Positions 2,839 through 14,718 are shown, numbered from the stretch's first letter. The stretch: 64,000 bases of DNA from an uncultured SAR116 cluster alpha proteobacterium (GCA_902595515.1 CACJQK010000001.1:1-64000); one strand, 5' to 3'. Numbers and translations are program-made. Notes: generated by a model from the letters alone, not told the origin.

Positions 2839-3552
2839 TTAATTATCTTCAACTTGACGTAACAACACATTTGAAAACTCAATCGAAAAGTATTCTAGGT
2901 TATTAGATAATTTTTCTAAATCATTTGAAAATTTATTGTATGCCGCAACAGCAGGTATAGCAGCTAGTAATCCTAGTGCTGTTGCAAATAGTGCCTCAGC
3001 TATTCCCGGTGCAACTACTGCAAGACTAGTATTATTGCTGATAGCTATGGATTGAAATGCATTAACTATACCCCATACCGTACCTAACAAGCCAATAAAT
3101 GGAGCTACCGAACCAATTGAACCAAGAAAACTCATACCTTTTTCCAATCTCTCAATTTCTTTATTAATAGATATATGCATAGAGTTATTAATTCTTTGAA
3201 TAAAATCTTTTAATTTTGAGCTAGATAAGGTTTGTCTTTGATTTAGTTTATTAAATTCTCTCATTCCACTAATAAAAACTCTTACCTGAGAGTTACTGAC
3301 ATTTTCAGAATATTCTTGGTATAAATCATCTAAATTAACGCCTGACCAAAAAACATCTTCAAATTCAATTGATAATTTTTTTTCATTTCTTAAAAGCGCA
3401 TATTTATTAATTATAATTGCCCAACACCATATTGATGCAAAAATAAGAAGGAACATGACACCTTTTACAAATGGATCAGCTTGGAAAAAGAGTCCTAATA
3501 TAGTTAAATCAGGTCCACTTGATATTACCTCTGTTTTAACATCTGGATTCAT
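2839..3552 (-). CDS. tolQ: TolQ, proton-channel subunit (MotA/TolQ/ExbB family)
   Basis: TolQ is the multi-span partner of TolR in the inner membrane. The 237-aa protein has a first membrane helix at about residues 28-50, a cytoplasmic loop, and the paired helices carrying the family motifs 'FIGLLGTVWGIVNAFQSI' and 'EALFATALGLLAAIPAVAAY'. Length matches the family. The start is ATG with GAGG upstream. It follows ybgC by about 23 bp, the classic ybgC-tolQRAB arrangement. Confidence 0.97.
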   Translation of the reverse strand: MNPDVKTEVISSGPDLTILGLFFQADPFVKGVMFLLIFASIWCWAIIINKYALLRNEKKLSIEFEDVFWSGVNLDDLYQEYSENVSNSQVRVFISGMREFNKLNQRQTLSSSKLKDFIQRINNSMHISINKEIERLEKGMSFLGSIGSVAPFIGLLGTVWGIVNAFQSIAISNNTSLAVVAPGIAEALFATALGLLAAIPAVAAYNKFSNDLEKLSNNLEYFSIEFSNVLLRQVEDN

Positions 3553-10958: not shown

Positions 10959-10999
10959 TATTATTGTAAGATTAAATTTTTACCTATTTTGGAGTGATA

Positions 11000-11809
11000 A
11001 TGAGTAATAGATCACCACTTTTAAATGTTATTTTTCAGTCCATTAATAAGGTAACTAAAAATATATTAAGAGATTTTGGAGAAATAGAAAATTTACAAGT
11101 ATCTCCTAATTCATTGGAACAATTTGTTTTAAAAACTGAGAAAAAAATTTCTACATCTCTTTTAAAGGATTTGAAAAAATCAAGACCAGAATGGGGTATA
11201 AAGTTATATAATGATCAGGATTATGTTAAAGATAAATATTATTGGATTGTAGATACATTAAATGGTCGATTTAATTTTTTACATGGGTTACCACATTTCG
11301 CAATTTCTGTTTCTGTAGAGCTTAATAATGAAATATTATCTAGTGTTATCTTTGATCCAATAAGAGACGAATTATATTTTGCTGAAAAAGGGAAAGGCTC
11401 TTTTCAAAATGATAGAAGAATAAGAGTTTCAAATAGAAAAGTATTAAAATCATGTGTGTTTTCAATATGCGACGAATATACTTTTGATAAAGAATTCTCA
11501 ATTTTAAATTCTTATGAAAAAATCAATATTTTGTCATATCAGTCTTCTTCAGTTATACGTTCATTTGGTTCTTCAGCTCTAAGTTTCGCATGGTTAGCTT
11601 CTGGAAAAATTGATTGCTTATTTGTAAATAATCTAAAAAAAAATCAAATAGCATGTGGCGAATTAATTATTAAAGAAGCAGGAGGCTATTTAACTAACTT
11701 AAAATACATTAATGCTTATGGCACTCAGGGTGGTTTATTAATAGGTGCTAATCCCATACTACACAAAGAAATTTTGAAGAAATTAAATAACAAAGATTTA
11801 AATTATTAA
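11000..11809 (+). CDS. Inositol monophosphatase-family protein, SuhB-like, probably catalytically inactive
   Basis: The 269-aa protein aligns along its whole length with SuhB/inositol monophosphatases ('GLPHFAISVSVE', 'IFDPIRDELYFAEKGKGSF', 'IIKEAGGYLTNL'). However, the metal-binding motifs are degraded: the EES glutamate is replaced in 'IKLYND', DPLDGTTNF has become 'DTLNGRFNF' (second Asp to Asn, Thr to Arg), and the WDxAAGE motif reads 'NQIACGE' (Asp to Gln). Three of four metal ligands are therefore missing. E. coli SuhB also works in rRNA antitermination independently of catalysis, so a structural role is possible. Start chosen at the ATG at 11000, 5 nt after GGAG; the track's GTG overlaps that Shine-Dalgarno. 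Confidence 0.85.
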   Translation: MSNRSPLLNVIFQSINKVTKNILRDFGEIENLQVSPNSLEQFVLKTEKKISTSLLKDLKKSRPEWGIKLYNDQDYVKDKYYWIVDTLNGRFNFLHGLPHFAISVSVELNNEILSSVIFDPIRDELYFAEKGKGSFQNDRRIRVSNRKVLKSCVFSICDEYTFDKEFSILNSYEKINILSYQSSSVIRSFGSSALSFAWLASGKIDCLFVNNLKKNQIACGELIIKEAGGYLTNLKYINAYGTQGGLLIGANPILHKEILKKLNNKDLNY

Positions 11810-11896: not shown

Positions 11897-12949
11897 ATGA
11901 CAGATCCAAATAAATATGCTTTTAGAATGTTATTCTTGCTAGTGATAGTTGCCTTACTAATAACCATATTATTTGAACCTCTTAAAAATGCTTTTGAAGG
12001 AAACGTTGTACTAAATAGTGTAATAGTTAGTACATTTATTTTAGGAACAATTTTCTCTTTTCGTCAAACAGTCCGCCTAAGTAAGGAAGCTAAATGGCTT
12101 AAATTTATAAAAAGAAAAGATAGTTTAATGCCAGCTAATGTGGCATCAAAAATCAAACCAATTCTGCTTGCACCTGTAGCTGCTGTCCTTTCAGATGACA
12201 GAAATGAGAATCCATCTTTGTCTGCAAATTCTCTTGGTACTATTTTAGATGGTGTTTCATCAAGATTGGATGAAAGTAGAGAAATACTAAGGTATATGAT
12301 TGGACTTCTAGTATTTTTAGGATTATTAGGAACTTTTTGGGGTTTGTTACAAACAATTTCTTCAGTGTCTGGAGTAATAAATACAATTGATTTTAATATT
12401 GGCAATATTTCTAATAAAGGAAATGCATTATTTATGGAAATTCAAAAAGGATTAAGTGCTCCACTTGACGGAATGTCTACTGCTTTTTCTTCTTCTTTAT
12501 TTGGCTTAGCTGGATCATTAATATTAGGTTTTCTTGACCTCCAAGTAGGACAGGCTAGTAACAGATTTTTCAATGAACTAGAAGATTGGTTATCACAAAT
12601 GGCTATTTTTACTACAAATGAATTAGGAAATTCTGGTTTGAGTGAGGCCGCTGTTGAAAGTCTTGCACTAGTTGCGAAAAGAGCAAATCAAAATGAAAAT
12701 GATAGAGTAAGAGTTTCAGAAAATATTAATGAACTTAATATTGTTTTAGATAGACTAGTAGAAAAACTTGACGAAGACAGGTCCATCAAAGATTATTTAG
12801 TAAAAATTTCCTCTATATTAAAAAATTTAGGAAATGAAAATACTGGTAAAATTTCTGAAATCCAATCTAGTTTAACCATTGAACTAAGGGCTATTTCTAA
12901 GCAATTATCAAATTTGGAAAAATCAATTGCCAAGCTTAATAACAAATAA
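11897..12949 (+). CDS. MotA/TolQ/ExbB-like proton-channel family protein
   Basis: A 350-aa inner-membrane protein with four predicted helices: about residues 9-30, 37-57, 130-155 ('LLVFLGLLGTFWGLLQTISS') and 192-215 ('STAFSSSLFGLAGSLILGFL'). The last two match the paired channel helices of MotA/TolQ/ExbB. A cytoplasmic segment (58-128) and a roughly 130-residue C-terminal tail with coiled-coil character complete it. It pairs with the downstream MotB/OmpA-like gene (28 bp), so the two probably form an ion-driven stator. It differs clearly from TolQ in this same window. The pair is conserved downstream of efp/suhB in other alphaproteobacteria, as far as I recall; function is not established. 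Confidence 0.85.
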   Translation: MTDPNKYAFRMLFLLVIVALLITILFEPLKNAFEGNVVLNSVIVSTFILGTIFSFRQTVRLSKEAKWLKFIKRKDSLMPANVASKIKPILLAPVAAVLSDDRNENPSLSANSLGTILDGVSSRLDESREILRYMIGLLVFLGLLGTFWGLLQTISSVSGVINTIDFNIGNISNKGNALFMEIQKGLSAPLDGMSTAFSSSLFGLAGSLILGFLDLQVGQASNRFFNELEDWLSQMAIFTTNELGNSGLSEAAVESLALVAKRANQNENDRVRVSENINELNIVLDRLVEKLDEDRSIKDYLVKISSILKNLGNENTGKISEIQSSLTIELRAISKQLSNLEKSIAKLNNK

Positions 12950-12977
12950 AAGATGAGATGTCTTATCGAGATTCTTA

Positions 12978-14123
12978 ATGATACAAAATAGAATTAGAAA
13001 AAAACAATTAGATTACACTTGGCCAGGTTTTGTTGATGCTTTGTCAAGTCTTCTAATGGTAATAATATTTGTACTAATGATTTTTGTTATTTCTCAATTT
13101 TTTATTTCCCAAAAAATGAGTGGTCAAGACGAAGCTCTTTCAAAGTTAAGAAATAATTTAACTGAGCTTAGCGAGCTACTCTCATTGGAAAGAGGTACAA
13201 CAACAGAACTTACTGCACAACTCTCTGTTTTAGAAGAACGAATTGAGGTAATTAAAGAAGATCTATTCAAGGAAAAAGAAATAACAAGACAATATCAAGA
13301 AGAACTTACAGGAACAAAAAATATTATTACTTTAAATGAGAGTGAAATTAATAAACTAAAAAAAGCTCTTGATGAAAAAATTATGGAAAATAAAAAGTTT
13401 TCGACTGATATCTCAGCCTTAAATAAACAAGTTAGTATGAAAAATTTTGAAATTCAAAATAAGGAAAATATTTTAAAAGCTAATAAAGAAGAGGTAAACC
13501 AACTAATAGCTACAACGTTAAATTTAAAAAATAAACTGACTCAACTTCAAACTCTGTTATCAGCCTATAAAGCAAAAGATAAAAAGGAAAATGTTAAAAC
13601 TGTAAACCTAGGAAAAGATGTAAACTCAGCTCTGGCCAGAAGAGTAGAAGAACTAGAAAAATTTAAATCTGATTTTTTTGGAAGAGTAAAAGAGCTCATA
13701 AAAGGTAGAAAAGAAATTAGAGTAGTTGGTGATAGATTTGTATTTCAATCAGAAGTTCTTTTTTCTTTGGGCTCTGATGAACTTGGTGTAGATGGACAAC
13801 TAGAAATGCAGAAGCTAGCTACTACTTTAATGGAAATTGAAAAATCATTGCCTACGGATATAGATTGGATTTTACAAATTGAAGGTCACACTGATAGTTT
13901 ACCAGTAAAAAAAGGACAGCCTTATAAGGATAATTGGGAGTTATCCACTAAAAGAGCATTGTCAGTATTAAGATTTTTGATAAAGCAAGGTATTGCTCCA
14001 AGCAGGTTATCTGCGTCAGGATATGGGAGTTTTCAACCAATTGATAAAAAAAAGACAAAATCTGCAAGAATGAAAAATAGAAGAATAGAAATGAAAATTA
14101 CACAAAACATTAAACTTAAATAA
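12978..14123 (+). CDS. MotB-like peptidoglycan-binding protein with long coiled coil (OmpA domain)
   Basis: A 381-aa single-pass protein. The N-terminal membrane helix (about 17-47) begins 'WPGFVDALSSLLMVIIFVL', placing an Asp where MotB has its essential proton-binding Asp. A long alpha-helical coiled coil follows (about 50-230, Glu/Lys/Leu-rich), then a C-terminal OmpA/MotB domain (about 250-380) with the peptidoglycan-binding signatures 'IEGHTDSLPV', 'NWELSTKRALSVLRFL' and 'SASGYG...NRRIEMKI'. Together with the upstream MotA-like protein it looks like a cell-wall-anchored, ion-driven motor. There are no flagellar genes nearby, so it is not annotated as motB. Confidence 0.85.
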   Translation: MIQNRIRKKQLDYTWPGFVDALSSLLMVIIFVLMIFVISQFFISQKMSGQDEALSKLRNNLTELSELLSLERGTTTELTAQLSVLEERIEVIKEDLFKEKEITRQYQEELTGTKNIITLNESEINKLKKALDEKIMENKKFSTDISALNKQVSMKNFEIQNKENILKANKEEVNQLIATTLNLKNKLTQLQTLLSAYKAKDKKENVKTVNLGKDVNSALARRVEELEKFKSDFFGRVKELIKGRKEIRVVGDRFVFQSEVLFSLGSDELGVDGQLEMQKLATTLMEIEKSLPTDIDWILQIEGHTDSLPVKKGQPYKDNWELSTKRALSVLRFLIKQGIAPSRLSASGYGSFQPIDKKKTKSARMKNRRIEMKITQNIKLK

Positions 14124-14132
14124 AGAAGAGAT

Positions 14133-14429
14133 ATGATCCAAAACTTAATTGACAAATTTAATGCTAAATCTAAAGTACATTTATTAGTAATTTTTTTAGT
14201 TTTTGGTTTAAGTGGTTCTTTTTCGCTATGGGTTTCTTCACCGATCATGTCAGCTTTAGAATTAAAAAATATTTTAAATAATGATTTTCTATATATTTTT
14301 TTAAGATTTTTAATATTAATTCCCATCTACCAGTTTATTTTAATAATATTTGCTACTTTATTTGGTGAATTTGAATATTTTTGGAGATTTGAAAAAAAGT
14401 TTTTAAAACGTATTAAAATCATTAAATGA
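14133..14429 (+). CDS. Small two-helix membrane protein (DUF6787-like)
   Basis: A 98-aa protein with two hydrophobic helices (about residues 15-37 and 52-78) and a basic C-terminus ('RFEKKFLKRIKIIK'). The layout, including a conserved-looking 'FGEFEYFWRFEKKFLKR' after the second helix, resembles small DUF6787 membrane proteins. That is a family resemblance from memory, not a search. It starts 10 bp after the MotB-like gene with AGAAGAG upstream of its ATG, so it may be an accessory component of the same operon. Confidence 0.6.
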   Translation: MIQNLIDKFNAKSKVHLLVIFLVFGLSGSFSLWVSSPIMSALELKNILNNDFLYIFLRFLILIPIYQFILIIFATLFGEFEYFWRFEKKFLKRIKIIK

Positions 14430-14490
14430 CTTGAAATAAAATAATTTTAAATGTAGTTATATCAATAAATTAATAATGACTGAGATTACC

Positions 14491-14718
14491 ATGAAAAAAG
14501 ATATCCACCCAGATTATCACGAAATTACAGTAATAATGACAGACGGTAGTAAATATAAAACACGATCAACCATGGGAAAAGTTGGAGACACTCTTAAATT
14601 AGATATTGACCCCAAATCACATCCGGCTTGGACTGGTCAGCACAGAATCTTAGACACTGGTGGTCAAGTTGCCCGATTTAATAAAAGGTTTTCAGGCTTA
14701 GGTGTTAAAACCGATTAA
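14491..14718 (+). CDS. rpmE: 50S ribosomal protein L31
   Basis: L31 of the zinc-independent type: '[20 protein letters not shown]' and '[20 protein letters not shown]' are typical, and the CxxC zinc ligands are absent. Family members start MKKDIHP, so I place the start at the internal ATG at 14491 (75 aa) rather than the track ATG 15 bp earlier; a GAG lies upstream of it, but the signal is weak. Its stop overlaps the convergent glyS stop. Confidence 0.93.

Follow-up and report, generated by a model that had tools for sequence, protein, structure and literature searches.

A putative non-flagellar ion-driven motor pair of the alphaproteobacterial envelope

Results

A motor-like gene pair in a SAR116 genome

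The window, a stretch of 64,000 nucleotides from an uncultured SAR116 cluster alphaproteobacterium, encodes two proteins, here designated A and B, that resemble the two subunits of ion-driven envelope motors. With confidence evenly balanced for and against, we propose that the two make up an ion-driven motor that does not belong to the flagellum, is a housekeeping component of the envelope in alphaproteobacteria and probably serves wall growth or division. The motor part of this proposal is based on an invariant membrane Asp in B together with invariant Thr and Ser residues in A, on the MotB-like OmpA fold of B, on retention of the pair throughout the class, on synteny and on proximity to the tol genes. 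The role in growth or division, and a partnership with either of two neighboring gene products (protein X or RgsF, see below), are suggested by gene context.

The gene for A (350 amino acids) is located on the plus strand at positions 11897–12949 and is followed on the same strand by the genes for B (12978–14123, 381 amino acids) and for C (14133–14429), a small membrane protein of 98 amino acids. The genes form a tight cluster with gaps of 28 bp between A and B and 9 bp between B and C. The three open reading frames that a sequence-only reading of this DNA had proposed were confirmed at these positions. A gene of the inositol monophosphatase (IMPase) family upstream (10994–11809) and rpmE, encoding ribosomal protein L31, downstream (14476–14718), both on the plus strand, are kept neighbors and are treated as context; the IMPase is not a part of the motor. 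The window also harbors genes for TolQ (about 2839–3552), TolR (about 2416–2838) and TolA (about 1527–2411), in agreement with the earlier statement that the cell has a TolQR system.

The A subunit

A was assigned to the MotA/TolQ/ExbB/ZorA superfamily by the Pfam domain MotA_ExbB (PF01618, 28.6 bits at a cut-off of 22.9), by its AlphaFold model and by its class-wide orthologues. The model, built from an alignment of 68 sequences (overall pLDDT 80), shows helices at residues 4–24, 37–73, 110–163 and 175–241, followed by a C-terminal tail with helices 248–290 and 295–349, for which the confidence was lower (pLDDT 56–80). The tail (residues 248–349, positions 12638–12943, plus strand) is predicted to be cytoplasmic. 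A hydropathy scan revealed three clear membrane helices (8–26, 37–55 and 130–148), and a fourth one at about residues 193–216 is predicted from the model and from a conserved stretch in the alignment. The combined estimate places the membrane helices at about 8–26, 37–55, 130–157 and 193–216, so that the four-helix, MotA/TolQ-like protein with a C-terminal tail seen by the first reading was borne out by the Pfam match and the model.

Thr146, Thr153 and Ser200 were present in all 135 A sequences and Ser198 in 132 of 135; these residues are located in helices 3 and 4. A was 44–48% identical between SAR116 families and 36–42% identical over the class as a whole, and 29 alignment columns were invariant, which argues against a chance locus. 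The closest named records were from SAR116-cluster genomes (84–91% identity). Internal stops were reported for A in some genomes. These look like matches that overran the end of the gene, since the intact gene of the window gave the same signal.

The B subunit

B belongs to the NCBIfam family PRK09039 ("peptidoglycan -binding protein") by the curated cut-off: model NF006543 (PRK09039.1-2) matched residues 6–376 of 381 with 342.2 bits at a cut-off of 305. The models of the PRK09039 set (NF006542–NF006546) matched all 50 B relatives scanned, and B model matches were above the cut-off in 46 of 61 relatives, many of the remaining genomes being incomplete. An AlphaFold model of B built from 50 sequences (pLDDT 82) shows a single helix of 184 residues (18–201), a break, a second helix (212–241) and an OmpA fold. 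The membrane helix comprises residues 25–43 and Asp20 is located at its start, within the motif WPGFVDA (Asp codon at 13035–13037, plus strand). The first reading had put the key Asp at the beginning of this helix and depended on its conservation among orthologues. Asp20 was found in all 127 distinct B sequences, and Trp15 and Pro16 were equally invariant. Asp20 presumably faces the Thr and Ser residues of A.

The predicted periplasmic rod extends over residues 45–241 (13110–13700, plus strand). Assuming a straight helix with 1.5 Å per residue, residues 45–201 (157 residues) would span about 24 nm. Together with the 30 residues of helix 212–241, the modeled helices account well for the "about 180 residues of coiled coil" described before. 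The length of rod plus linker ranged from 143 to 444 residues over the family while both ends were conserved, and we therefore consider the rod to be adjustable in length between fixed ends. A separate plug helix was not predicted in the AlphaFold model of B.

The rod is followed by a peptidoglycan-binding domain of the OmpA/MotB type (residues 247–376, 13716–14105, plus strand; PF00691, 62.6 bits), for which Foldseek retrieved MotB-like and MotS domains as the closest structures (TM-scores 0.80–0.83). The OmpA domain was also part of the first reading. In Pal and OmpA, two conserved residues of this type of domain bind peptidoglycan. We take Asp306 and Arg326 to be the corresponding residues of B; they were present in 124 of 124 and 122 of 122 ungapped sequences, respectively. 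Of the features of the ion-driven 5:2 superfamily, the domain and fold of A, the membrane Asp of B and the Thr/Ser residues of A were found in the pair.

Relation of A to ZorA

A search of the PDB with the A sequence alone retrieved nothing relevant. Profile searches retrieved mostly generic coiled coils plus one ZorA (8vvn, E 0.012), which was the best match spanning the membrane part. The PADLOC profiles ZorA1 and ZorA3 matched all 68 A members at tens of bits. The A protein of the window scored 54.5 bits against ZorA1, partly over the coiled tail, compared to about 290–470 bits for true ZorA proteins. In hhalign comparisons, the probabilities for A were 96% with ZorA when three ZorA sequences were used (52% with two), 79% with TolQ and 41% with MotA. 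Foldseek listed ExbB first by E-value and matched mainly ExbB, ZorA and TolQ with TM-scores of 0.3–0.6; the highest target-normalized TM-score among the matches listed was 0.59 for 8vvn_D, a type I ZorA. Based on these sequence and model comparisons, A is likely to be nearest to ZorA.

The pair is not a general flagellar stator

The first reading had described the pair as lying outside any flagellar context. This holds for the locus and does not hold for the cell, which encodes FlhA on contig 3 and a typical MotA (254 amino acids) and MotB (397 amino acids) on contig 9. We compared the occurrence of the pair and of FlhA in 241 genomes: both were present in 105, the pair alone in 60, FlhA alone in 42 and neither in 34 (Fisher p = 0.26). 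A SAR116 genome consisting of one contig (G043) had the pair and lacked FlhA. The retention of the pair without FlhA refutes a flagellar stator as its general role. We regard it as hardly credible that A and B are an alternative flagellar stator, even though the OmpA domain of B is similar to those of MotB and MotS and databases name A a MotA/TolQ/ExbB protein: the genome carries a separate MotAB set, 60 of the 165 pair-bearing genomes lack FlhA, and the sequence of A is far from MotA in hhalign. No NCBIfam MotA model matched A. Flagellar function was thus rejected because of the independence from FlhA and the separate MotAB. The first reading had named a flagellar stator as an outcome that would refute its claim. 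With this rejected and the Asp conserved, its view of the pair as a second stator-like machine, driven by ions and of unknown function, was correct. At least three others are encoded in the cell: TolQR, the MotAB of the flagellum and, also on contig 9, an odd pair.

This odd pair is encoded at bases 75–1616 of contig 9 (loci L003 and L036). A MotA_ExbB-like protein of 152 amino acids at the contig edge is followed by proteins of 206 and 156 amino acids. The 206-residue protein carries an Asp in its membrane helix and matched neither Pfam nor PHROG; the 156-residue protein is a membrane protein. From its sequence, this may be another type of ion-motor-like pair.

Distribution and inheritance

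The class sample comprised 241 alphaproteobacterial genomes, drawn at 90% completeness or above apart from our own genome (80% complete), which is one of the 241. A profile matches, mostly in single copy, were obtained in 165 of the 241 genomes, although a few were weak matches (E about 1e-14 to 1e-17) that could come from paralogues. When genomes were split by size, which omitted G000, G039 and G042, 111 of the 123 with at least 2.8 Mb carried the A-B pair, versus 51 of 115 smaller ones. Since about 10% of the large and over half of the small genomes lack the pair, it is not universally needed. The genomes of 2.8–4.3 Mb without the pair (G063, G070, G091, G156, G179, G184, G199, G212, G243, G265, G279 and G291) fall in a few families, e.g., f14 and f35.

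In the A tree, SAR116, Rhizobiales-like, Acetobacteraceae-like and Azospirillum-like sequences each clustered together. The tree tracks taxonomy, and inheritance was apparently mostly vertical. Outside the class, A matches at E ≤ 1e-15 were found in 6 genomes of a phylum-wide sample. A small group of A sequences from outside the alphaproteobacteria (Tahibacter and a beta MAG) probably reflects transfer or faulty binning, as does the sequence from a Desulfobacula MAG. A phage or plasmid origin of the pair was also considered and dismissed, as no viral contig and no phage record were found; the plasmid matches were rhizobial replicons, one of them a 3.7 Mb chromosome-like record labeled pSymB.

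Conserved neighborhood of the pair

Among 80 named loci, many of which end early, 65 had IMPase as a neighbor, 61 had efp and 38 had rpmE. The conserved order was efp-IMPase-[X]-A-B...rpmE. This fixed core synteny with housekeeping neighbors bears on an anti-phage role. Zorya is a defense system with effector genes (PMC11890865), and the profile likeness of A and B to ZorA and ZorB would fit a Zorya defense system here too. Such a function is nevertheless highly unlikely in view of the synteny, of an A tree that follows taxonomy with mostly one copy per genome, and of the flanking genes: no ZorC/D/E-like gene was seen among those looked at, which were not each scanned against Zorya models. Defense was rejected because of neighbors and inheritance, and Zorya was kept as the likely nearest relative.

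The tolB gene was found within 45 kb of the pair in 45 of 52 genomes with both on the same contig (an approximate hand count from the listed rows), with a median distance of 19 kb over 49 genomes when the far pairs in G078, G180 and G190 were excluded; this same-contig counting favors near pairs in fragmented genomes. In one-contig (closed) genomes among the matches listed, the pair was near tolB in 7 of 10.

Protein C (positions 14133–14429) has two hydrophobic segments by hydropathy and matches Pfam DUF6787 (PF20584, 70.7 bits), as expected from its initial description as a small two-helix protein. DUF6787 was present in only 7 of the 241 class genomes. It was therefore rejected as a core third subunit and is probably a local associate. 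It adjoins the pair in two lineages, where its gene runs in the same direction as the pair here and in the reverse direction in family f11; it was also seen in G067, G181 and G262. No paper on DUF6787 was found in the open-access literature.

In many Rhodospirillales-type loci the gene directly upstream of A encodes a secreted or lipoprotein-like protein, here named X (e.g., L085:4386–5864, L099:4717–5913 and L117:4878–5936). X combines an N-terminal motif that is short and conserved (VDLSVLD) with a long region rich in proline and, at the C-terminus, a domain resembling OmpA. This domain retains the Arg of the LSxxRA motif, and its GHTD motif reads AYAG; X may therefore not bind the wall in the usual manner. 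X was present at 64 of 100 loci with room for it and at none of the SAR116 or Rhizobiales-like loci. Searches of SAR116 for X gave weak matches to short Pal-like open reading frames, with none in our own genome.

In many loci, a gene for an MsbA-like ABC exporter separates B from rpmE and runs on the other strand (e.g., L163:9963–11777 in S. meliloti and L040:4405–6219). With the frequent proximity to tolQRAB and the resemblance of X to a Pal- or TolA-like linker protein, this gene could point to a motor for outer-membrane or lipid maintenance, either Tol-Pal-like or linked to lipid export, that pulls outer-membrane or periplasmic lipid machinery. We think this unlikely, since the exporter gene does not share the strand of the pair and is missing from some loci, and B binds the wall itself rather than handing force to a TolA-like arm.

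The rhizobial locus and RgsF

In S. meliloti Ak57 the gene order was tkt-gap-(glycolipid-binding)-pgk-fba-PhzF-TPR-hypothetical-MFS-DUF1192-DUF1465-rpmE-ABC-B-A-IMPase-Sel1-thiE. The tkt2 gene is SMc03978 (PMC9611204). Counting genes from there, and assuming that the 764 bp separating pgk from fba contain one gene that is not listed, we infer that B is SMc03992, A is SMc03993, IMPase is SMc03994 and the Sel1-repeat protein is SMc03995. In conflict with the IMPase assignment, PMC9611204 names SMc03994 as ribosomal protein S21. In the Sel1 protein beside the pair (L163:5337–6482), the Sel1 repeats scored 101 bits, and a weak TPR match and a signal-like N-terminus were also seen. SMc03995 is RgsF (PMC7327166), and by this count the Sel1 protein would be RgsF.

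RgsF, which is required for polar growth, was essential in a knock-out test (PMC5929573). It is located at the growing pole and septum, its depletion results in short round cells, and it was co-isolated with RgsA, as were TolQ and TolR (PMC7327166). A and B are not named in the accessible parts of the Rgs pulldown reports. Other Rgs proteins were considered as candidates for B and were dismissed. Four further loci without X (L107, L113, L123 and L158) also had an upstream gene for a Sel1 homologue. Sel1 and X seem to be mutually exclusive at this position.

The gene for A appears in another published data set: a ChvI-binding fragment was located inside SMc03993 (PMC3687685), which is the A gene by count. 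This would suit a Zorya-like sensor of wall stress, in which B would probe the peptidoglycan, a flow of ions would set in and the rotating tail of A would signal to a cytoplasmic partner, so that the output is cytoplasmic rather than work in the periplasm. The matches of all 68 A members to the ZorA profiles, the preference of the PDB profile search, hhalign and TM-score for ZorA, and the ZorA-like helical tail of A would agree with it. The tail, however, has only about 100 residues, and no gene for a cytoplasmic partner is conserved alongside, whereas those for the periplasmic X and RgsF are. We consider a sensor of this kind possible, if on the doubtful side.

Discussion

Our preferred reading remains an ion-driven motor of the envelope. 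By analogy to the known motors, five A subunits would be expected around two B subunits (A5:B2). Protons, or Na+, would pass Asp20 at the A/B interface, and their passage would make the ring of A subunits rotate relative to the B dimer, with the rod of B tying the machine to the peptidoglycan. Because B would be tied to the wall, work could reach either the wall or periplasm by way of B or the cytoplasm by way of the A tail as it rotates. The most likely role would be coupling of force or signal at sites of wall growth or division, beside Tol-Pal and distinct from it. A candidate periplasmic partner is encoded alongside in other lineages, which would be X in Rhodospirillales-like lineages and the Sel1 protein RgsF in Rhizobiales. 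These neighbors point to wall growth. Gene neighborhood is indirect evidence for function, as the neighbors also include efp, rpmE and glycolysis genes.

No functional study of the A-B pair or of PRK09039 was found in the open-access literature. The family appears to be unstudied and is already named in annotation as PRK09039.

Few rotary ion-driven envelope motors are known: the flagellar, Tol, Ton, gliding and Zorya systems. If our reading is correct, about 90% of the larger alphaproteobacterial genomes encode a further such motor, which adds to the basic functions of the envelope in the class of rhizobia and major ocean bacteria. Through its link to RgsF, the pair would give access to the question of how polar growth of the wall is powered or coordinated in Rhizobiales. 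The pair also bears on the origin of Zorya. In its fullest form, the idea would be that a class-wide housekeeping motor related to ZorAB drives or gates wall growth via a wall-bound rod and a swappable partner, X or RgsF, with Zorya as a defense spin-off; as a whole we hold this to be doubtful.

A 2025 mBio survey of the superfamily states that B subunits other than flagellar ones lack homology to OmpA, and its tree does not include ZorAB (PMC12505986). The A-B pair is not discussed in the accessible part. Since B is non-flagellar and bears an OmpA domain, the pair falls outside the scheme as presented there, and it bears on the claim that the OmpA-type wall-binding domain is confined to flagellar B subunits.

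Compared to the flagellar MotA/MotB stators (including PomA/PomB, MotS and MotD), the pair has the same MotB-like wall-binding domain, the membrane Asp and the order of A before B. It differs by the weak match of A to MotA, the lack of a predicted separate plug helix in B, the long rod and its retention in the absence of flagella. TolR and ExbD have about 140 amino acids and no OmpA domain. With TolQ/TolR and ExbB/ExbD the pair shares the superfamily of A (PF01618), a B subunit with a single membrane helix and an Asp, and the non-flagellar setting, whereas B has an OmpA domain here and no TolA or TonB gene adjoins the pair. B is a member of the PRK09039 family, and the S. meliloti pair carries the names "peptidoglycan -binding protein" and "MotA/TolQ/ExbB proton channel family protein", but these names come from annotation only. 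The closest likeness is probably to ZorA/ZorB of Zorya, with a four-helix A that has a cytoplasmic helical tail, a B with a membrane Asp and an OmpA domain, and no connection to flagella. ZorA, however, has about 700 amino acids with a far longer tail than the roughly 100 residues of A, the ZorB chain of 8vvn (282 amino acids) is too short for a long rod, and the A-B pair is a class-wide housekeeping system.
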